Below, piece by piece: positions 5,975-43,658 of a stretch of 64,000 nucleotides of DNA. The position numbers and the translations under genes are program-made. How positions within the stretch are numbered: the first letter of the stretch is position 1; each line of letters begins with the position of its first letter. This DNA comes from Synechococcus sp. JA-3-3Ab (GTDB lineage: Bacteria > Cyanobacteriota > Cyanobacteriia > Thermostichales > Thermostichaceae). The stretch is from contig NC_007775.1 in NCBI RefSeq assembly GCF_000013205.1, positions 248,001 to 312,000 on the forward strand, written 5' to 3'. The notes beneath the pieces are model-generated. The model saw only the letters and a list, made by a program, of their open reading frames with translations. It ran no database searches and had not been told where the DNA came from.

Positions 5975-6046
5975 TCCTCGGTAGCTCAGCGGTAGAGCGG
6001 TCGGCTGTTAACCGATTGGTCGCAAGTTCGAATCTTGCCCGAGGAG
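5975..6046 (+). tRNA. trnN: tRNA-Asn (GUU)
   Basis: Full cloverleaf. Acceptor TCCTCGG (5975-5981) pairs with CCGAGGA (6039-6045), discriminator G at 6046. D arm GCTC/GAGC; anticodon stem GTCGG/CCGAT around loop CTGTTAA with anticodon GTT at 6007-6009; T arm with the TTCGAATC loop. CCA is not encoded. The gene is 72 nt with a short variable loop. Confidence 0.97.
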
Positions 6047-31341: not shown

Positions 31342-31437
31342 TTCCAGCACGAATACAATCGCCTCATGGGCCGGCTATTTCTGCCGCGGCAAACAGAGGC
31401 AGAGTACCAAGCCCGAATTTTGGGTCGGCCTGCCTAA
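31342..31437 (+). pseudogene. Fragment of peptide deformylase (3' end), duplicated
   Basis: Reads FQHEYNRLMGRLFLPRQ, then TEAEYQARILGRPA and a stop. This matches the last third of def at 37522-37635, but with six codons missing and the zinc-binding HEYDHL changed to HEYNRL. Nothing of the first 130 codons remains. With the DUF393 gene that follows, it is one half of a segmental duplication. Confidence 0.85.
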
Positions 31438-31448
31438 GGGATCCCACC

Positions 31449-31994
31449 ATGCCCTACATGGTTATCTACGACGGCCTCTGCAACCTCTGTGCCACCGGCG
31501 TTCAGCTCTTGGAGCAACTGGATCGCGGACGGCAGTTTTGCTATGCCCCCATGCAAGATGCTTCTACCCTGGCCCAATGGGGGATCCCACCGGAGCAGGT
31601 GGAGCTGGGGATAATTCTCATCGATCTGGAGCACCCAGAGCGCCGCTGGCAGGGATCCGCTGCCATTGAACAAATTGCCGCCCTTTTGCCGGGTGGGGAG
31701 CTGTGGCTGGCTTTTTACCGCAACTTCCCTGGCTTGAAGCTTCTAGGGGACCGAGGCTACGAACAGATCCGGGATCACCGCTACGAGTGGTTTGGCCGCC
31801 GTAACACCCCATACCTATGCGCCCTTCTGGCGGCAGGGCATAGGGATCCGCAACAGAAGGTTAATGCCTGTGCACTCCAAGTCCTCCATGACCACCGTCG
31901 CTGTGCATTTTTGAGCGCCCTTTGGGTATACTTGAGACTAGACTCAAGGTTTGCCTTTGAGTTTCCCTGGGGTGAGCTAGGCAGCTCTTGCTAA
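31449..31994 (+). CDS. DCC-family (DUF393) thiol-disulfide oxidoreductase-like protein, copy 1 with replaced C-terminus
   Basis: 181 residues. The first ~123 match copy 2 at 37646 closely, with the family motif DGLCNLC near the N-terminus and GYEQIRDHRYEWFGRR at the end of the core. After NTPYL (about 31818) homology stops: this copy runs on for some 57 unrelated residues instead of ending SVYPACVSCRDPL. The C-terminus is therefore read-through into other DNA and the protein may be impaired. DCC proteins carry a redox-like DxxCxxC motif; their role is unknown. Confidence 0.72.
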   Translation: MPYMVIYDGLCNLCATGVQLLEQLDRGRQFCYAPMQDASTLAQWGIPPEQVELGIILIDLEHPERRWQGSAAIEQIAALLPGGELWLAFYRNFPGLKLLGDRGYEQIRDHRYEWFGRRNTPYLCALLAAGHRDPQQKVNACALQVLHDHRRCAFLSALWVYLRLDSRFAFEFPWGELGSSC

Positions 31995-32018
31995 AGACGT
32001 TGACCCTAGCAAGTTTTT
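31987..32018 (+). terminator. Hairpin with T-run before the exported-protein gene
   Basis: CTTGCTA (31987-31993) pairs with TAGCAAG (32007-32013), followed by five T residues. It overlaps the stop of the DUF393 copy and ends just ahead of the AAGGAG ribosome site of the gene at 32033, so it could end the upstream transcript or act as an attenuator for the next gene. Confidence 0.6.
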
Positions 32019-32032
32019 GAAGGAGATCTGCC

Positions 32033-33727
32033 ATGGCTTCCCGCAACTCAAAATCCCGCTTTCGTCACCCGATAGCTCCCTTGATTTTGGCTTCCTCCCT
32101 CGTAGGAGGAGTGGCTGCTTGTTCCCTTACTTCGGATCCTCCGGCTGTTACTCAGGTTCCCCCGACAATTTCAGCTCAGGCACCAGAAGCAGCAGTGCAG
32201 GGCTCTGAGAGCATTGCCTTCTACTACGACGGGGTAAAGACCTCAGTCACCGTCAAGGATGCAGCAATCCTTTTTGCCGCCTGCACTCTCAACACTAGCG
32301 ACACAACCAAGATCGTAGGTTTTGTCAACAACACGCTTAAAGCAGGGCCGATTAAGGACAGTGATGTCACTGGGCTAGGTGACCCGCTGAAGCCCGCTAT
32401 CTCTGACTTCACGGGCGACGGCACGGTTGACTGCAAAGATGCGGCGGTGCTGTTTGCCGTAGCCACGTTGGGCACGGAGGCGCCTGCGGCCAAGGTTAAC
32501 GGCTTTTTGTCCGGCACCCTGAAGCTTCCCGAGGTGAATGTTACTCAAACTCAGTTGGATACCCTCTTCAAGACTCCAGCAACACCGACCCTGCCGCCGA
32601 CCCCGACTCCGACACCGACGCCAACTCCCACACTTACTGTAACACCCACCCCGACTCCGACACCGACGCCAACTCCCACACTTACTGTAACACCCACCCC
32701 GACTCCGATGCCAGACATGGCAGGGCCGTTAGAAGCCAAGTTGCAAGAAGCCAACAAGGCCTTCCGCGATGCAGTTGCTTCTGAAATGCAAGTGGCTGCG
32801 CGTCAAGCGGGCGTGAAGATCTACACAGACAACTTCGTCGCCATTCCGCTTGATGATGGCAGCTCCGTCGTGGTGAATGCGGGCATCGCCGGGGTGGAGA
32901 ACCTGACGCTTGAGCAATTGGCGCAGGGCGCCGATGTGCTCTTCACCTTCCTGCGGCTGCCGCAAGGCTCCCCTCTGCCTTCGGGCTTCTACACTGTGCG
33001 GTTTTTCCAAACGCCGGGGACAACGCAATGGAAGGCGCAGTTCAGGAACCTGGATGGACGGGTCGCGCTTGAGACCGATGCGCAAGTAGGGCCGGGAGAC
33101 CCCGCACAGATAGAGATACCCAAACCCAAGCTAACAGGGGGCGTTTTTATAGACCCAAGAAACCCAATAACCGGCAGTAGAATTGAGATTGATATCCACT
33201 GGAAAAAGGGCAAGGCTCAGGCATCAGTGCGGCTGGGCACAGGTGGACCTGACCCAACCCCCTTGTCGGCAGAGGGTCAGGTAATCGCGCAGGCAACCGC
33301 GAACTTTTACGAGGCAGCCCGCAAAATAATCAACACGTACAAGGACAATACGTACAGGCAGGTCATCATTGGCTCAAGGGATGACAACTTGGTAGTCCAC
33401 ACGGTCTTCCAGGGCGTGGAAGAGCTGACGCTGGACGAGTTGGCCAAGGGGCAGGATGTGTTCTTTGCCTACTTCCGGGTACCGCAATCCTCTGGGCTTC
33501 CTTCTGGCTTCTACACGGTGCGCATCGCAAAATCTGCCACGGGCGAGTGGCTTGCACGCTTTGTAGATGCAAAGGGAAATACGGTGAAAGAGGTGCCAGC
33601 GACAGTGGGCCATGGGGAGACACCAGCACAAAACGGGAGGGGGAGGTTGACAATAGAAATAGGCCCGGGTTATAGCTGCATTGACTACCACCGCGGTAGA
33701 CGTTTCATTAAGGTTTGTTGGGGTTAA
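32033..33727 (+). CDS. Exported lipoprotein with dockerin-like repeats, Thr-Pro linker and two copies of a new domain
   Basis: 564 residues. The signal peptide ends in lipobox VAAC (Cys30). Residues ~60-105 and ~124-165 are two related units (VKDAAILFAACTL and CKDAAVLFAVATL); the second has a calcium-loop pattern DFTGDGTVDCKD, like a dockerin or EF-hand. A Thr-Pro linker spans about 182-227. Two copies of an unrecognised domain follow (about 234-352 and 415-535), sharing LTLEQLAQGADVLFTFLR / LTLDELAKGQDVFFAYFR and LPSGFYTVR. The same domain is in the gene at 41017, nearly identical in DNA over 100 bases. GGATCC is almost absent. Function unknown; surface location is inferred. Confidence 0.8.
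   Translation: MASRNSKSRFRHPIAPLILASSLVGGVAACSLTSDPPAVTQVPPTISAQAPEAAVQGSESIAFYYDGVKTSVTVKDAAILFAACTLNTSDTTKIVGFVNNTLKAGPIKDSDVTGLGDPLKPAISDFTGDGTVDCKDAAVLFAVATLGTEAPAAKVNGFLSGTLKLPEVNVTQTQLDTLFKTPATPTLPPTPTPTPTPTPTLTVTPTPTPTPTPTPTLTVTPTPTPMPDMAGPLEAKLQEANKAFRDAVASEMQVAARQAGVKIYTDNFVAIPLDDGSSVVVNAGIAGVENLTLEQLAQGADVLFTFLRLPQGSPLPSGFYTVRFFQTPGTTQWKAQFRNLDGRVALETDAQVGPGDPAQIEIPKPKLTGGVFIDPRNPITGSRIEIDIHWKKGKAQASVRLGTGGPDPTPLSAEGQVIAQATANFYEAARKIINTYKDNTYRQVIIGSRDDNLVVHTVFQGVEELTLDELAKGQDVFFAYFRVPQSSGLPSGFYTVRIAKSATGEWLARFVDAKGNTVKEVPATVGHGETPAQNGRGRLTIEIGPGYSCIDYHRGRRFIKVCWG
32603..32698 (+). repeat. Two perfect 48-bp tandem repeats encoding the Thr-Pro linker
   Basis: Units 32603-32650 and 32651-32698 are identical and start CCGACTCCGACACCGACGCC; a partial third unit follows. 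Each unit codes for 16 residues (a TPTP stretch ending in TLTV), so copy-number change keeps the frame. Confidence 0.92.
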
Positions 33728-33996
33728 GAGTTGAACGGCACCATCGCTTTCTCCACTGACGGAACTTTCTTCAAGGTCAGTGGCAACGGAACCTTCTCGG
33801 CGTCTTACCTCTCGTGCGGATGAGGACATTCAAGGGGGCATCGGGTGATCAGTCAACCGCTCGGTGCCCCTTCCTTATGTCTCAGGCAATCGCAGAGAAG
33901 TGTCATAACTTCGGACTTTGCGGATGTCGCCGACGCCCTGCAAATTCAGATTCCGTGCTTCTCCAAAAGCACCCACGAAATGCTGGCAAATAGCGG
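33728..33996 (+). other. Spacer with a possible terminator and a 30-residue frame
   Basis: A short TTG frame (33731-33823, NGTIAFSTDGTFFKVSG) looks like a fragment of an exported protein, but I cannot place it. AAGGGGGCA (33832-33840) and TGCCCCTT (33865-33872) form a hairpin that may end transcription. The rest, up to the AAA+ pseudogene, shows nothing recognisable. Confidence 0.4.
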
Positions 33997-35394
33997 ATGG
34001 CAATAGGAGGTATTACCATCCTAGCCGACTCTCTGAAGCCCAAACGCAAGCTCTTGATCTGGGATATTGTCTCTGGCTGGTCAGATAACGGTCAGAACAA
34101 GGGGCAATTGATGCCTGCCTTGAACCGCATCGGCACCATCAGAGAAGATGAAGCAGTGATTTGTGTCTTGAAAGACTTTAACCCTACCCTGAGAAATCCA
34201 GAACGCTCGGATAATTATCCCGTCATTCGCTACCTGAAAACTTTAGCTAGGCAGAGCCGCAGCAGCCGCAAATCCATTATTCTCATGGGGCCAGAAGCAG
34301 TTGTACCCTCAGACCTGAGATCCGAGCCTGCCAAGGGCTGACGCGGCAGCGCATTGAACGCATCCTGGCCCGCGCCTTAGCTGCCAAGGGCAAGGTCAGC
34401 GAGGGCGACATCGATCTGGTTTTGGAAGAAAAAAAGCAATACATCCGCCAAACGGAAATCCTAGAATTTTACAGCCCTTCGGAAACCTTGCAAAATGTCG
34501 TCGGCCTGGAAAACCTCAAGGCCTGGATTAGAGAACGCCGCAACAGTTTTAGCGCTCAGGCCCGCGACTATGGCTTGCCCAGTCCCAAAGGGATTTTGCT
34601 GGCCGGGATCCAAGGCACTGGCAAATCCCTCTGCGCCAAAACCATAGCCCGCGAGTGGCGCATGCCTCTGCTTAGGTTGGATGTGGGGCGGCTGTTCGGT
34701 GGGATCGTTGGCGAAAGCGAAAGCCGCGTGCGGCAGATGATCCAAATTGCCGAGGCGATGGCCCCCTGTGTCTTGTGGATTGACGAATTGGATAAAGCCT
34801 TTGGCGGCATCAACAGCGAGTTTTCTGGGGATTCAGGCACCAGCAAACGGGTCTTTGGCAGCCTCATTACCTGGATGCAGGAAAAGACCAAACCCGTTTT
34901 CATTGTGGCCACTGCCAACAACGTCCGCATCTTGCCGGCTGAGTTGCTGCGCAAAGGTCGGTTTGACGAGATTTTCTTTGTCAATTTGCCAAACCAACGA
35001 GAGCGGGAGGAGATCTTTACAAGTCCACATCCAGCGACTGCGGCCTAACCGCGTGCGGGATTTCTCCTACACCGAGCTGGCCGTGGCAACGGAAGACTTT
35101 AGCGGGGCAGAAATTGAACAGGCTATCTATGACGCCATGCACATGGCCTTTAACCAAGATCCACCCCGCGAGTTTACCCAAGAGGATATTCTCAAGGCCA
35201 TTCGCCAAACCGTCCCTCTAGCCGCCATTGCTCGTGACCAAATTCAAGACTTGAAGGCATGGGCTGCTGAGTCGGGAGCTCGAACCGCCTCCCAGGATCA
35301 ACGGTTGGTTCAAGAGCTGCAAACCCTGGCTCAAAAGAGAGGACTAGGCCCCATTGAAGTCGATAGCCCCTCTTCCGCTCTGAAAGACCTATAG
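33997..35394 (+). pseudogene. Ycf46-like AAA+ ATPase, copy 1, broken in three frames
   Basis: Compared with the copy at 42258, 118 bp are missing after base 34320 (bases 42471-42588 of the other copy), which shifts the frame and gives a stop at 34339. A one-base insertion near 35022 (ATCTTTACAAG against ATCTTCCAAG) breaks it again. Walker [13 protein letters not shown] and Walker [13 protein letters not shown] are intact in the middle segment, and the last part continues [19 protein letters not shown]. Homology to the other copy starts exactly at AATAGGAGGTATTACC in both, so both lack the same N-terminal ~30 residues. Confidence 0.9.
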
Positions 35395-37107: not shown

Positions 37108-37635
37108 ATGACCTTGCGCCTGCGCCAACTGGGGGATCCCATCCTGACTCAAGTGGCTGAGCCGGTCGCCGAGTTTGGGACGCCGGCTTTGCAAAACCTA
37201 ATTGAAGAGATGCTCGCCACTTTGAAAGAGGCCCAAGGGGTGGGCTTGGCGGCCCCTCAGGTGGGATTCCCCCTCCAGGTCATCATCGTAGCCTCCCGTC
37301 CCAACCCTCGCTATCCTGATGCACCCCAGATGGAGCCGCTGGTCATGGTTAACCCCCGCCCCCTAGCTTGCAGCGAGGAGCAGGTGCTGGGGTGGGAAGG
37401 GTGCTTGAGCGTGCCCAACTGCCGCGGCCTGGTGGCCCGTTCCCGCGAGGTGGAGGTGGAGTACCACACCCCTGAGGGATCCCGGCAGCGGGTGGTCTGG
37501 CGGGATTTTCCGGCGCGCATCTTCCAGCACGAATACGATCACCTCAGGGGCCGATTGTTCCTAGATCGGCAGCCGCAGCAACTGCTCTCTGAGGCCGACT
37601 ACCAAGCCCAGATTTTGGCCCAGCCCCCTGCCTGA
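37108..37635 (+). CDS. def: Peptide deformylase
   Basis: Removes the formyl group from nascent N-terminal methionine. The three family motifs are intact: GVGLAAPQVG, EGCLSVP and QHEYDHLRG (metal ligands Cys and two His, catalytic Glu). 175 residues. The same strand as purF and 10 bases before DUF393 copy 2. Its 3' third is duplicated, in damaged form, at 31342-31437. Confidence 0.97.
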   Translation: MTLRLRQLGDPILTQVAEPVAEFGTPALQNLIEEMLATLKEAQGVGLAAPQVGFPLQVIIVASRPNPRYPDAPQMEPLVMVNPRPLACSEEQVLGWEGCLSVPNCRGLVARSREVEVEYHTPEGSRQRVVWRDFPARIFQHEYDHLRGRLFLDRQPQQLLSEADYQAQILAQPPA

Positions 37636-38015
37636 GGATCCCAACATGCCCTACATGGTTATCTACGACGGCCTCTGCAACCTCTGTGCCACCGGCGTTC
37701 AGCTCTTGGAGCGCCTGGATCGCGGCCAGCAGTTTCGCTACGCCCCCATGCAGGATGGAGCTACCCTGGCCCAGTGGGGGATCCCGCCAGAGCAGATGGA
37801 ATTGGGGATGATCCTGATCGACCTGGAGCAGCCGCAGCGCCGCTGGCAGGGATCCGCTGCCATTGAACAAATTGCCGCCCTTTTGCCGAGCGGGGAGGTG
37901 TGGCTGGCTCTGTACCGCAACTTTCCTGGCTTGAAGGTTCTGGGGGATCGAGGCTACGAACAGATCCGGGATCACCGCTACGAGTGGTTTGGCCGCCGTA
38001 ACACCCCATACCTAT
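37522..38015 (+). repeat. Source half of a segmental duplication (def tail + DUF393)
   Basis: Corresponds to 31342-31818 in the same orientation about 6 kb upstream. The DUF393 part is much more alike than the def part, where the upstream copy has lost six codons and its metal ligands. The outer limits are abrupt on both sides. Confidence 0.85.
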
Positions 38016-38068
38016 CTGTCTACCCTGCTTGTGTTTCCTGCCGGGATCCCTTGGCTGACAACCCATAA
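37646..38068 (+). CDS. DCC-family (DUF393) thiol-disulfide oxidoreductase-like protein, copy 2
   Basis: 140 residues, the complete version: MPYMVIYDGLCNLCATGVQL with the family DxLCxxC-type motif, a middle part with GSAAIEQIAALLPSG, and the end RRNTPYLSVYPACVSCRDPL. Its C-terminal Cys pair is missing in copy 1. Only ten bases separate it from def, so it should be co-transcribed with purF and def. The role is unknown; the motif suggests thiol redox chemistry. Confidence 0.85.
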   Translation: MPYMVIYDGLCNLCATGVQLLERLDRGQQFRYAPMQDGATLAQWGIPPEQMELGMILIDLEQPQRRWQGSAAIEQIAALLPSGEVWLALYRNFPGLKVLGDRGYEQIRDHRYEWFGRRNTPYLSVYPACVSCRDPLADNP

Positions 38069-38496
38069 TGCTTGGTAATGCTTGCCCTTATCCAGCTACC
38101 TCCAGCTACCTGAACTGAAGGAGGCCGATAGGAGAGGGGCTGTACTTAAGGGATCCCTTGACGAGGGATACATTACTCCTGAGTGTTTAATAATTTTTAA
38201 CTCACCTCATTGGTAAACAGGATGTGTTTGTGTGTCAGGAACACCTTTTCGGCCCTGAGAAAGCTGGCCTAGGATGGAAATGTTATGACGTTGTCAAAGA
38301 CCCTCTTTTAGGCTGGGTGGTCACTTGGTAAAAGGCTGCCGACAGCCAGAAAAGAACGCAAAGAGCAAATCTTTTTGCAAAAGGTCTGCTAAAGCGCGTC
38401 ATCAACCATTGGAAAGTTCCTTGATGCTTTATAAGGAACAAAGAGAAACGGTCGTGACGAAGAAAAGGAGAAAGACGAAGAAAAGGAGAAACAACA
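38069..38496 (+). other. AT-rich leader of the LamG gene
   Basis: No gene is convincing here. Bases 38165-38240 are AT-rich (GTTTAATAATTTTTAACTC) and mark the change from the GGATCC-rich host background to the GGATCC-free block that runs to 43420. The last GGATCC is at 38151. Confidence 0.5.
38456..38491 (+). repeat. 18-bp direct repeat duplicating the ribosome site
   Basis: GACGAAGAAAAGGAGAAA occurs twice in tandem (38456-38473, 38474-38491), ending five bases before the ATG at 38497. Each unit contains AAGGAG, so the gene has two Shine-Dalgarno boxes 18 bases apart; only the nearer one is well spaced. Confidence 0.92.
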
Positions 38497-40758
38497 ATGA
38501 GAAAATCGTCTACTTTTGTTCTAGTTTTTGGATCGATGATGCTGGCGATGAGCGCCGCCATCGCGCACGCACAATCAAACTCTAATCCGGCCACTTCATG
38601 TCAGACTGGTGGTGTTACGCCAGGGCCCATCGCTTGTTGGCCGATGAATGATTCGAACGGAAGCACCGTCCTGCAGGAGGTAATCGGCGGTAACAATGCG
38701 GGACCAGTGAGGTCGCCTGTCGGCGCTGCACAAGCGCCGCAACCGATCGCAGGCCAATTCGGCGGCGCGATCGACTTCGTCAAATTCCCAGGATCAGGGT
38801 TAACCGGAGCTGTAGTTACCAACACGAGTGGGGCTTTGCCATTCATCGGACAGGGTGACTTCTCCATTGTTACTTGGATAAAATTCCCGCCTACTTCGGC
38901 TTCGGCGCCTCCTTCGGGTCCGGGTGGGCGACACTACATCCTCAACAAGTACGACGCCCCGCAGAAAAAAGGCTACGCGCTCTACGTCATCCGTCCCTCG
39001 GGTAGCAATTCATCCTATTTAGAGTTTCTATGGGGGGACGGCGTCAGCACCTCGCCCCAAACGTTGCAATCAAGCACGCCGATCACGCCCAATCAGTGGC
39101 ACTTGGTCGCCGTGACCTTTGCGCGCAACGTCGGCAGCAATTCGCTCGTCGTCACCTTGTACGTGGATGGCGCGCCGAATGGCACCTATATGAGCACGGC
39201 GCCGTGGGGTTCGCTCGTCAACAACCTCGCCATCATGATGGGCTACCAACCGAGTTCGGTCGACGAACCCATCGCCCTCGACGAATTGCAGATTTATAAC
39301 CGTGCACTGACAGCGAATGAGATTTCTCAGATATACAATGCTGGTTCAGGCACGCAGCCGCCTTGCGTGCAACCGCCGTCGGGTATGGTCGCGTGGTGGC
39401 CGCTGGATGAGACCTCGGGAACAACGGCTGCCGATATTGCAGGATTCCCCAACAACGGAACGCATGTGAATGGTCCGACGCCAGTATCCGGAAAGGTTGC
39501 TGGTGCGCTCCGATTCGATGGCGTAAATGACCATGTGCGCGTACCTGACCATGCCGAGCTGAATGTTGGCACTGGCAATTTCACGCTGGATGCGTGGGTG
39601 CGCACAGGTTCTTCAGGCCTGATCGTGCTCGTGGACAAGCGTAGTGGTCCCACACCGCAGGGGTACTCGCTCTTCCTCGTCAATGGCCGATTGGGATTCC
39701 AGAGAGCTAATGGTGTTGGGAGTTCGGTTTGCGCCGCCACCCCTACACCAGGTCGTGCGTGCGTAAACTACGTTGCTCCACCGACGAGCCCAAATGTCGC
39801 TGATGGTCAGTGGCACCATGTGGCGGCGGTGGTGGATCGGGCGAACGCAACCAGTGGTGTGCGCCTCTACGTGGACGGTGTCCAGGTGTTTGCCGGTTCG
39901 CCACTGACGGGGAATCTGGACAACACAAGCGACCTGTATCTGGGCATGCGAACGCCAGCCCAAAATGGCGGCGGCTTCCTCCCTGGCGATCTTGACGAAG
40001 TAGAGCTCATCAAGCGTGCGCTCACGCAGCAAGAGATTCAAGCGATCTTCAATGCCGGCTCTGCGGGCAAGTGCAAATGCGTGCAACCGCCGTTGGGTAT
40101 GGTCGCGTGGTACCGGATGGATGGGAATGCGAACGATTCCGGAGGCTCCAACAATCCTTCGGCGACCAACGCAATCAGCTTCGTCGCGGGCAAGGACGGT
40201 CAAGGCGTGACGTTCAGCCCGGGCGGTTACATCGAGATCCCGCACTCGCCCGCGCTGGCCCCCCAGCGGTTCACCATCGACGCATGGGTCAAGCCGCAAG
40301 GCCCCGGACCGAACAATGACTTCTGGGGGAGCGTCATCGTACAGAAGGGTTTGCCGCTGCCAGCGGGGCACACGGCCCAGTCCGTCTCCCTTTGGTGGAG
40401 CTCGAACCAGCAAAAATTCCTCTTCGGAATTGGGACCTCCTCGCCGCCAACGAACGTTGCTGTTTCATCCAACACGTTCCCAGCTACGAATACAAATTGG
40501 TACCACGTCGCCGCAACCTACGACGGCAGCACCATGAAGCTCTATGTCAACGGCAACCTCGAAGCGTCGAAGCCGTTCACATCGTCCATTACTTACGACC
40601 CTTCGATTCCCTGGACCATCGGCTCGACAGCGGCTCCATACCGCGCCCTCGGTGCCCCGCGCACCTTCAACGGTGTCATCGACGAGGTGGAGATCTTCAA
40701 CCGGGCACTGTCGCAAGCGGAAATTCAAGCCATCTACAAATCCGGGAAGTGCAAATAA
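38497..40758 (+). CDS. Exported protein with three LamG/concanavalin A-like domains
   Basis: 753 residues. The Sec signal peptide is MRKSSTFVLVFGSMMLAMSA with cleavage near AHAQS. Three jelly-roll domains follow (about 45-285, 290-525, 528-752), each opening with a variant of MVAWWPLDE and closing with LDELQIYNRALTANEI or IDEVEIFNRALSQAEI. Domains 2 and 3 both begin CVQPP. Such domains bind glycans or cell surfaces; there is no catalytic or anchoring part, so a secreted adhesive or binding role is inferred. The gene has no GGATCC and codon use unlike its neighbours, consistent with transfer from another phylum. Confidence 0.85.
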   Translation: MRKSSTFVLVFGSMMLAMSAAIAHAQSNSNPATSCQTGGVTPGPIACWPMNDSNGSTVLQEVIGGNNAGPVRSPVGAAQAPQPIAGQFGGAIDFVKFPGSGLTGAVVTNTSGALPFIGQGDFSIVTWIKFPPTSASAPPSGPGGRHYILNKYDAPQKKGYALYVIRPSGSNSSYLEFLWGDGVSTSPQTLQSSTPITPNQWHLVAVTFARNVGSNSLVVTLYVDGAPNGTYMSTAPWGSLVNNLAIMMGYQPSSVDEPIALDELQIYNRALTANEISQIYNAGSGTQPPCVQPPSGMVAWWPLDETSGTTAADIAGFPNNGTHVNGPTPVSGKVAGALRFDGVNDHVRVPDHAELNVGTGNFTLDAWVRTGSSGLIVLVDKRSGPTPQGYSLFLVNGRLGFQRANGVGSSVCAATPTPGRACVNYVAPPTSPNVADGQWHHVAAVVDRANATSGVRLYVDGVQVFAGSPLTGNLDNTSDLYLGMRTPAQNGGGFLPGDLDEVELIKRALTQQEIQAIFNAGSAGKCKCVQPPLGMVAWYRMDGNANDSGGSNNPSATNAISFVAGKDGQGVTFSPGGYIEIPHSPALAPQRFTIDAWVKPQGPGPNNDFWGSVIVQKGLPLPAGHTAQSVSLWWSSNQQKFLFGIGTSSPPTNVAVSSNTFPATNTNWYHVAATYDGSTMKLYVNGNLEASKPFTSSITYDPSIPWTIGSTAAPYRALGAPRTFNGVIDEVEIFNRALSQAEIQAIYKSGKCK

Positions 40759-40849
40759 ATTCAAGAAGGTGTTCGATCCGACACAGTTTCCGACGAACCG
40801 AAGTGGAGGATATGCTCTCTTAGTTCGTCTCAGTCGGAACAGGAACAAC

Positions 40850-40876
40850 ACTCCCGTAAGATCATTACGGAGTTTT
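40850..40876 (+). terminator. Intrinsic terminator after the LamG gene
   Basis: ACTCCCGTAA (40850-40859), loop GATCA, TTACGGAGT (40865-40873): nine pairs with one bulged C, running straight into TTTT. It lies 92 bases after the LamG stop. Confidence 0.65.
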
Positions 40877-40893
40877 GGGAAACAACAGATAGT

Positions 40894-40970
40894 TCACGGC
40901 CAAGGGTTTCTCGGTCACTATGCAACCTACTTCCAACAATTAGTGATGCCAGAGAAACCCTTGGTTGTGA
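40894..40970. repeat. 77-bp imperfect inverted repeat upstream of the second exported protein
   Basis: Arms 40894-40912 and 40952-40970 pair over 19 bases with two mismatches (TCACGGCCAAGGGTTTCTC and its partner). An inner TCACTA/TAGTGA (40915-40920, 40941-40946) extends the stem. It ends 46 bases before the ATG at 41017. No T-run follows, so it is more like a regulatory structure or a folded mobile remnant than a terminator. Confidence 0.8.
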
Positions 40971-41016
40971 CAACTGCCACATAGCGTGCAAAACTCAAAC
41001 GTTAGGAGGTGTCATC

Positions 41017-41997
41017 ATGAAGAGAATAACAACTATAGCTTTGCATTCCGTGTTTCTCGTAGCTCTTGTTTTCAGCACGGGGTATACCCTTGCACAGAAA
41101 GAAACACAAGAAAGGCATCAGACCGAAAAGAGGCAAGCGCCCGTTCAATCAGTACCACGTCCGTTGCCAGACATGACAAGGCGGGTGCAAGAAGCCAACA
41201 AGGCTTTCCGCGATGCAGTTGCTTCTGAAATGCAAGCGGCTGCGCGTCAAGCGGGCGTGAAGATCCGCACAGACAACTTCGTTGCCATTCCATTTGATGA
41301 CTCGGGCACGGTTATCGTAAACTCGATGATCGAAGGTGCCGATAGAGTGAGCATCGAGCAACTTGCTAAAGGTGCGGATGTTCTCTTTATCTATTCAGGT
41401 GCGAAGCTGGGATTTGCCGGAAGAGAAATTGACCCGGGATTCTATGTAGTGCGTATCTCGCAAAATCCTGCCAGTGGGCAGTGGATCGCCCAATTCAAGA
41501 ACTTGCAAGGCAGGGTTGTCTTGGAAACCGAAGCAATCGTAGAAAAACCAGACTCAAATGCTGCCAAGATGCAACCAATGTGCACGCTTGGACCAAAAGG
41601 CGAACTGATTCTCTTTGACGAGCACGACCCATTCAAAAATATTACACTATCGGTCAGTTCGAAAGGGCTTCCTTCGCGTAACGGGCAGAGTATTATTCGT
41701 GGAGGGTTCAGTATTATTTCTCACTCCAGGACACTACGCGAGGCAGCATGGCAGCTTGTTAAAGAGGTCGCGAAAGAGCCCGTCTCTATAGAACAGGTGG
41801 TTCCTGTAAGTTTTGGACATATCCCCCAGCCCGATGAGTACATCCTCATGAACTGCGGCACGAAACAAAAACCAGATTGGTGCGCTTGTAATCTAGTAGA
41901 AAAAGGACCCCATCCAACTGGAGAACATGTTTACTATTATGTCTGGAGTTGTATTGGCATTTATAGTAAGAAGTGGTATGTATTTCTCATATGGTAA
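41017..41997 (+). CDS. Exported protein with the same new domain as the gene at 32033
   Basis: 326 residues. The Sec signal peptide is ITTIALHSVFLVALVFSTGY with cleavage near TLAQK; there is no lipobox. Residues ~50-175 carry one copy of the unrecognised domain: NKAFRDAVASEMQAAARQAG, then TDNFVAIPFDD, VSIEQLAKGADVLFIY and GFYVVRISQN. The C-terminal ~150 residues are unrelated to anything else here and contain five cysteines, several clustered near NCGTKQKPDWCACN, suggesting disulphides. A strong AGGAGGTG ribosome site lies before the ATG. Function unknown. Confidence 0.78.
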   Translation: MKRITTIALHSVFLVALVFSTGYTLAQKETQERHQTEKRQAPVQSVPRPLPDMTRRVQEANKAFRDAVASEMQAAARQAGVKIRTDNFVAIPFDDSGTVIVNSMIEGADRVSIEQLAKGADVLFIYSGAKLGFAGREIDPGFYVVRISQNPASGQWIAQFKNLQGRVVLETEAIVEKPDSNAAKMQPMCTLGPKGELILFDEHDPFKNITLSVSSKGLPSRNGQSIIRGGFSIISHSRTLREAAWQLVKEVAKEPVSIEQVVPVSFGHIPQPDEYILMNCGTKQKPDWCACNLVEKGPHPTGEHVYYYVWSCIGIYSKKWYVFLIW

Positions 41998-42015
41998 ATA
42001 GATGGAGGTATAGCT

Positions 42016-42147
42016 ATGCCAAACGGAACAAGCACTGCAGTAACTGAGGCAACCCGCCTCACCGATATTGGGTTTCCAGAATTTACCGCCAAGCTGGTGA
42101 AGGATGTCTTCGATGCGCTCCTTGCGGCAACACTTGCTCACGTCTAA
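42016..42147 (+). CDS. Small ORF, probably the truncated start of a larger gene
   Basis: 43 residues, MPNGTSTAVTEATRLTDIGF, then PEFTAKLVKDVFDALLAATL. A good GGAGGT box lies six bases before the ATG, and the frame starts 18 bases after the preceding stop. The sequence reads like a helical N-terminus that ends abruptly where the duplicated AAA+ unit begins (AATAGGAGGTATTACC at 42152), so the gene was probably cut by that rearrangement. I cannot name a family. Confidence 0.45.
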   Translation: MPNGTSTAVTEATRLTDIGFPEFTAKLVKDVFDALLAATLAHV

Positions 42148-42257
42148 CAAAAATAGGAGGTATTACCATCCTAGCCGACTCTCTGAAGCCCAAACGCAAG
42201 CTCTTAATCTGGGATATTGTCTCTGGCTGGTCAGATAACGGTCAGAACAAGGGGCAA

Positions 42258-43658
42258 TTGATGCCTGCCTTGAACCGCATCGGCACCATCAGAGAAGATG
42301 AAGCAGTGATTTGTGTCTTGAAAGACTTTAACCCTACCCTGAGAAATCCAGAACGCTCGGATAATTATCCCGTCATTCGCTACCTGAAAACTTTAGCTAG
42401 GCAGAGCCGCAGCAGCCGCAAATCCATTATTCTCATGGGGCCAGAAGCAGTTGTACCCTCAGACCTGAGAGAAGAAATGGTGGTCTGTGACTTTCCCTTG
42501 CCCAGCACTTCTGAAATTGAACGAATTATCACCAGCGTTATCCCTCCTAATCTACTGCAGGTGAGCGGTCTTGCTCTTGAGCAACTGATCCGAGCCTGCC
42601 AAGGACTTACCCGACAGCGTGTCGAGCGGATTCTGGTCCGCGCCTTGGCTGCCAAGGGCAAGGTCAGCGAAGGGGATATTGATCTCGTTTTGGAAGAGAA
42701 AAAACAATACATCCGCCAAACTGAGATTCTGGAGTTTTACAATCCCTCTGAGACTCTGCAAAATGTCGGAGTGGAAAACCTCAAAGCTTGGATTAGAGAG
42801 CGCCGCAACAGCTTTAGTGTCCAGGCCCATGCCTATGGCCTACCAAGCCCCAAAGGGATTTTGCTGGTTGGCATTCAGGGTACTGGCAAGTCCCTATGTG
42901 CCAAAACCATCGCCCGCGAGTGGCGCATGCCCTTGCTCAGGCTGGATGTGGGGCGACTCTTCGGCGGGATCGTCGGCGAAAGCGAAAGCCGCGTGCGCCA
43001 GATGATCCAAATTGCCGAAGCCATGGCCCCTTGTGTGTTGTGGATTGATGAGTTGGATAAAGCCTTTGGCGGCGTCAACAGCGAGTTTTCAGGGGATTCG
43101 GGCACCAGCAAGCGGGTCTTCGGCAGCCTGATCACCTGGATGCAGGAAAAAACCAAACCCGTTTTTATTGTTGCCACCGCCAACAATGTCCGCATCTTGC
43201 CGGCCGAGCTGCTGCGCAAAGGCCGGTTTGACGAAATTTTCTTCGTCAATTTGCCCAACCAACGGGAGCGGGAGGAGATCTTCCAAGTCCACATCCAGCG
43301 GCTGCGGCCCAACCGCGTGCGGGATTTTGCCTACCCTGAGCTGGCCATGGCCAGCGAAAACTTCAGCGGCGCAGAAATTGAGCAGACCATCTACGATGCC
43401 ATGCACATGGCCTTCAACCAGGATCCGCCCCGCGAGTTTACCCAGGAGGATATTCTCGGCGCCATTCGCCAAACCGTTCCCCTGGCCGCCATCGCCCGCG
43501 ACCAGATTCAAGACTTGAAAGCGTGGGCTGCCGAGTCCGGGGCCCGAACGGCCTCCCGAGATCAACACCTTGTGCACGAGCTGCAAACCCTGGTGCAAAA
43601 AAGAGGGCTGGGCCCCATCGAAGTCGACAGCCCCTCCTCATTTAAGTTTTCTAACTAA
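42258..43658 (+). CDS. Ycf46-like AAA+ ATPase, copy 2, N-terminally shortened
   Basis: Intact frame of 466 residues from TTG 42258 (ATG at 42261). Walker [13 protein letters not shown], Walker [13 protein letters not shown], sensor ATANN and the arginine-finger region [12 protein letters not shown] are all present, with the Ycf46 signature [19 protein letters not shown]. Homology extends upstream in frame to about 42155 (GGITILADSLKPKRKLLIWD) without an ATG. A strong AGGAGGT (42155-42161) stands six bases before an ATC (42168), so either initiation is non-standard or ~35 residues are lost. Ycf46 proteins are linked to CO2 response and photosynthesis regulation in cyanobacteria; the exact role is open. 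Confidence 0.85.

Follow-up and report, generated by a model that had tools for sequence, protein, structure and literature searches.

The window analysed here, a 64-kb stretch of the genome of Synechococcus sp. JA-3-3Ab, is located on a single contig of 2,932,766 bases at positions 248001-312000 and carries two copies of a locus flanking purF-def, which were found by self-comparison: copy A (31342-35375) and copy B (37522-43639). All genes and segments of both copies described in the following are encoded on the plus strand. In copy B, a native left flank composed of a DCC1-like gene (PF04134) and an AT-rich leader (37646..38275) can be aligned to the related genome G003 up to position 38275. 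Next to it lies a segment of 3892 bp (38276..42167) encoding, in this order, a LamG protein of 753 aa with three Laminin_G_3 domains (38497..40758), the 326-aa orphan protein expB (41017..41997) and an ORF of 43 aa (42016..42147). For LamG and expB an N-terminal hydrophobic signal can be recognized by eye, as can a purine-rich ribosome-binding site upstream of the 43-aa ORF. An imperfect 24-nt inverted repeat (83%) is present at 40894-40970 in between LamG and expB. The segment is followed by an AAA+ gene (42168..43658; PF00004, E 1.1e-31), which we take to be Ycf46-like. It has lost its start and about 62 N-terminal codons, as calculated with a 545-aa paralogue as length reference, and the first remaining start is a TTG at 42258. 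Downstream of this AAA+ gene nadK is found, and the genes following the AAA+ gene in G003 and G004 are located in the genome of the window (G000) approximately 50 kb upstream of purF (G000:C1:231867-233401); these displaced neighbours suggest that a rearrangement breakpoint lies where copy B ends, at 43640-43655. Copy A is composed of the tail of def and DCC1 (31342..31818, 86% identical to 37522-38015), the exported-protein gene expA (32033..33727), a copy of the junction between the 3892-bp segment and AAA+ (34002..34320) and a broken remaining AAA+ copy (34319..35375, 86% identical to 42587-43639).

The genome is saturated with the hexamer GGATCC, the core of the octamer GGGATCCC, which occurs 3397 times in 2.93 Mb, i.e., 1158 times per Mb, compared to 55 occurrences of the reversed control. 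It was reported that in Synechococcus JA-3-3Ab and JA-2-3B the HIP1 derivative GGGATCCC is more frequent than any other octamer, that it reaches 1160 per Mb in Synechococcus OS type A and that the HIP-type palindrome is tied to GATC methyltransferases (Life 2015, PMC4390886). Since identity and frequency of the word match those given in the passages of this study (1160 per Mb there, 1158 per Mb here), the GGATCC saturation represents a published HIP1-type trait. In contrast to our analysis, these passages do not apply the word to mapping foreign DNA. The window contains 175 GGATCC sites, one per 366 bases and not roughly every 500 bases as the original prediction had put it, and only 68 of the 175 are part of GGGATCCC, which the prediction had described as the usual context. 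The ten sites it had counted in the first 5 kb are indeed present.

The largest gap between GGATCC sites in the window spans 5270 bases in copy B, from the site at 38151-38156 to the site at 43421-43426, confirming the site-free block 38157-43420 as real. The second largest, which had been overlooked, spans 2472 bases (32134-34606) and is located in copy A, so that the two largest gaps of the window sit in sister loci. Assuming a Poisson model with one site per 357 bases, a gap of 5.3 kb has a probability of approximately 4e-7 per gap and of approximately 0.003 over the whole genome, showing that it exceeds chance. To describe the genomic background, 20 roughly evenly spaced 20-kb stretches were sampled (400 kb, 1120 GGATCC sites, 10 kb N-masked). 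The longest unmasked gap in this sample is 2788 bases, and two longer gaps contain masks of 5000 N. Site-free were 8 of 6702 unmasked sample windows of 2500 bp and none at 3000 bp (0/6482), 3892 bp (0/6106) or 5264 bp (0/5495). A gap of 3488 bp was encountered beside an IS605-type gene in L149, a later, non-random stretch. GGATCC-free blocks over core genes elsewhere, named beforehand as the observation that would speak against import, are absent from the 400-kb sample except for GroEL.

Only five of the 96 sampled ORFs longer than 1.2 kb lack GGATCC, namely four IS605/TnpB-type genes and GroEL. It was shown for a cyanobacterium that HIP1 scarcity together with odd codon usage marks acquired DNA and that HIP1 is missing from rDNA and ribosomal protein genes (BMC Genomics 2011, PMC3025956). 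The long site-free ORFs of the sample thus represent mobile and highly expressed classes, as the passages of that study would predict. The site-free IS605/TnpB-type genes are multi-copy (L011:12789-14450, L014:18226-19800, L022:17853-19514, L025:233-1921 and L149:14169-15758) and have an unusual N-terminal extension of approximately 150 aa preceding the HTH domain (tested against Pfam for L011, L014, L022 and L025).

The block 38157-43420 is not homogeneous, as native AAA+ sequence makes up its final 1.25 kb (42168-43420). Homology to G003 stops at 38275 (L103) and resumes at 42168 (L115), which narrows the foreign part to 38276-42167. The original prediction had placed the left boundary at the AT-rich leader at 38165; G003 has this leader as well, up to 38275, so that it is native. 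The right boundary at 43420 could not be maintained either, as 43421 is merely the next GGATCC site inside the AAA+ gene. Import of the whole block 38157-43420 was thereby ruled out, the AAA+ part and the leader being native. The insert contains 16 GATC sites with 16.2 expected, and no GGATCC with 1.0 predicted from order-1 composition, i.e., it is GGATCC-free and shows no GATC excess. In window positions 1-38156, 320 GATC sites were observed with 122 expected, and 109 GGATCC sites with 13.3 expected.

The AAA+ gene of copy B is 91% identical to a gene of G003, and a remnant is found in G004; it is native to the genus. Nine relatives from the same family, encoded at other native loci of six genomes, contain one to three GGATCC sites, compared to one in this gene. 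Because the family is site-poor at native loci, the scarcity of sites in the AAA+ gene says nothing about import. The foreign acquisition proposed for the block is therefore upheld for 38276-42167, where GATC and GGATCC are not enriched, the composition is outlying, the congeners lack the sequence and LamG has its closest kin in Acidobacteria, and it does not hold for the AAA+ part.

The LamG protein matches PF13385 (Laminin_G_3) with E 9.9e-75 and 250.2 bits, above the curated cut-off of 27.6, while the match to NCBIfam NF052521 (TafC fimbrial protein) with 92.3 bits stays below the curated cut-off of 410. Its tetranucleotide distance exceeds that of all 74 sampled ORFs of similar length, and GC, GC3 and codon scores are mildly low (percentiles 0.16, 0.17 and 0.075, respectively). 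No match was found in any of five congeners (0/5), and 7 of 291 other cyanobacteria have matches at E<=1e-10, which are confined to a single stretch with at best 40% identity over one domain. A search of GTDB genomes gave 35 loci, and the best relative among them is encoded by the Acidobacteria MAG J014 (RFGC01000005.1), with 63% and 67% identity in domains 1 and 3 compared to 32% and 38% for the next best. Domain 2 is 43-50% identical to proteins of Ignavibacteria, Bacteroidetes, Chloroflexi and others. The J014 protein, a ConA-like secreted protein with Laminin_G_3, resembles LamG of the window in domains 1 and 3; in between, it has an SdrD_B-like stretch just under the Pfam cut-off, whereas the protein of the window carries a different type of LamG domain there. 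The J014 locus contains no GGATCC in 13.7 kb. As 63-67% identity is far from that of a direct source, J014 may at best be a relative of the LamG donor. Chloroflexi, originally favoured as donors, are not supported, with six Chloroflexi/Anaerolineae matches of at most 42% in the best segment (one with 46% over domain 2) versus 63-67% for J014. In IMG/VR, six LamG relatives were found with best segments of 24-37% identity. The dN/dS value of approximately 0.16-0.17 between LamG and J014 implies that LamG was kept under selection. Literature searches on J014, Acidobacteria, hot springs and its record number did not yield the habitat of J014 in print, and searches for LamG with JA-3-3Ab and for TafC with fimbrial yielded no paper.

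For expB, GC (0.476), GC3 (0.465) and codon score rank within the bottom 0.4% of the 228 ORFs sampled, and the gene is confined to this genome among 292 cyanobacteria. It has no match outside this genome in Pfam, NCBIfam, IMG/VR or plasmids; the BLASTP match to a neighbouring gene in J014 (E 0.018, 53 residues) was not accepted as homology. Taken together, the insert lacks the host palindrome, has an atypical composition and carries with LamG a gene that is absent from close relatives and has its best match outside the phylum, as known for xenologous inserts. The hallmarks of an integrative mobile element, i.e., integrase or transposase, tRNA site and terminal repeats, are lacking: no integrase or transposase was found among the ORFs read, no convincing repeats flank the insert, there is no Rfam match, and no tRNA lies at its borders, the only tRNA of the window being located at 5975. 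A phage or plasmid origin was rejected, as the 43-aa ORF has no match in phages, the insert DNA none in plasmids and expB none in IMG/VR or plasmids.

The junction between insert and AAA+ is present twice, the second time in the sister locus 8 kb upstream. The segment 34002..34320 of copy A is 99.7% identical to 42152-42470 of copy B (318 of 319 bases), while the AAA+ copies are elsewhere 86% identical, and copy A has lost approximately 116 bp relative to copy B at the end of this 319-base tract. Between the two AAA+ copies dN is 0.015 and dS 0.85, and before the presumed copying of the junction both were under strong purifying selection. Copy B is colinear with G003, which makes copying from B to A the simpler reading; junction DNA would thus have been transferred from B to A, breaking the AAA+ gene of copy A. 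In G004, the slot from purF-def-DCC1 to the AAA+ remnant is occupied by a pentapeptide-repeat-type gene, as judged by eye. In G003, the slot content is only partly visible because it is split over two contigs; the AAA+ contig starts with the end of a pentapeptide-repeat-type gene (by eye), followed by an AAA+ gene that has the N-terminal coding sequence and itself contains a stop.

DNA and protein alignments show that expA is composed of a native N-terminal export/PT-linker module up to 32708 and two further domains, the first of which is similar to that of expB. Positions 31900-32708 share 81.6% DNA identity with a native paralogue at 1.44 Mb, and relatives of the N-terminus occur in G004 and G007; G001 and G003 yield weak matches that fall largely into the linker. 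The C-terminal parts of the native paralogues are quite different. The first domain after the linker is 58% identical to expB in the alignment, including a 115-base tract (32742-32856 in expA, 41186-41300 in expB) of 93.9% DNA identity. The composition of expA is more host-like. EF-hand-like repeats at its N-terminus were seen by eye, and a search for a dockerin gave no Pfam family at E<=1; the structure predicted for the shared domain (mean pLDDT 53) was too poor for a fold search. We tentatively suggest, as a possibility rather than a likely outcome, that the slot behind purF-def-DCC1 is a swap site for genes of secreted proteins, where domains from outside become attached by recombination to a native lipoprotein/PT-linker export module, and that in expA an expB-type domain was joined at approximately 32709 behind the native N-terminus common to the cluster at 1.435-1.443 Mb. 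Secreted-protein clusters of G000, G004 and G007 (L149:1635-10664, L150:4589-11405 and L151) have, by eye, a similar N-terminal part with lipoprotein, EF-hand-like and PT-linker features and different C-termini, and look like a modular display family. Moreover, a repeat of approximately 285 bases in G004 (L114:14334-14620) recurs with 99-100% identity in at least 12 places of G000, and additional copies reach 89-92%; it might represent a family of MITEs or IS ends that the two genomes have recently shared or in which it has been active in both.

We consider it probable that downstream of purF-def, in the interval from DCC1 to AAA+, native DNA was exchanged for 3.9 kb of a foreign operon encoding exported proteins. 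An earlier import by an ancestor, followed by loss in five congeners and with the DNA still unameliorated, is unlikely. The age of the duplicated AAA+ copies (dS 0.85) and the more host-like composition of expA with its expB-like domain would fit such a history; however, not a single palindrome has arisen in the insert, and the slot holds a different, pentapeptide-repeat-type gene in G004 and ends in one in G003 (by eye).

The block might also be native and avoid the palindrome under selection, as highly expressed genes do. In the sample, GroEL lacks GGATCC, HIP1 is reported missing from rDNA and ribosomal protein genes (PMC3025956), and the AAA+ part fits a family with one to three sites at other native loci. 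However, expB and LamG show no bias to host codons (percentiles 0.004 and 0.075), the insert has no GATC excess, LamG is absent from the congeners, and expB is absent, among the matches listed, from one congener and from all others of the 292 genomes, so that avoidance in native DNA is very unlikely. Slightly less probable still is a chimera of assembly or cloning. The composition of the block differs and the analysis covered the assembled sequence, but the locus lies on a single contig, the insert is joined on its left side to an unbroken stretch of native DNA common to G003, and the insert/AAA+ junction occurs twice with 318 of 319 identical bases.

Import of the 3.9-kb piece would be explained as follows. 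A methylation-linked palindrome with GGATCC core accumulates in resident DNA, and the imported 3.9 kb have not gained it, so that the block is conspicuous. As the borders show neither an integrase or transposase nor a tRNA or Rfam element, the DNA may have been taken up and then integrated by illegitimate or homology-assisted recombination. The insert has cut off the 5' end of the AAA+ gene in copy B, the junction would then have been copied from B to A, and a native PT-linker export module may have captured an expB-type domain, giving rise to expA. LamG might be secreted and bind glycans of the mat matrix, with expB as its putative secreted partner.

As an event, the insert is ordinary horizontal gene transfer of a well-understood kind, and both HIP scarcity as import marker and the HIP word of this genome are already in print, as passages of the two studies show (PMC3025956; PMC4390886). 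The HIP1-poor xenologous genes and genomic islands described there resemble our case in that palindrome scarcity and odd codons mark acquisition; they differ in that the word was GCGATCGC in S. elongatus PCC 7942, whereas here GGGATCCC/GGATCC was used and a single 3.9-kb insert was given refined limits (PMC3025956). In this hot-spring genome, GGATCC can serve to delimit imported DNA to within a gene, and the approach separates true import from native site-poor genes. The capture of domains is the sole part that might surprise a specialist. If it holds, foreign domains placed on a native export scaffold would constitute a testable route of surface diversification in mat cyanobacteria.
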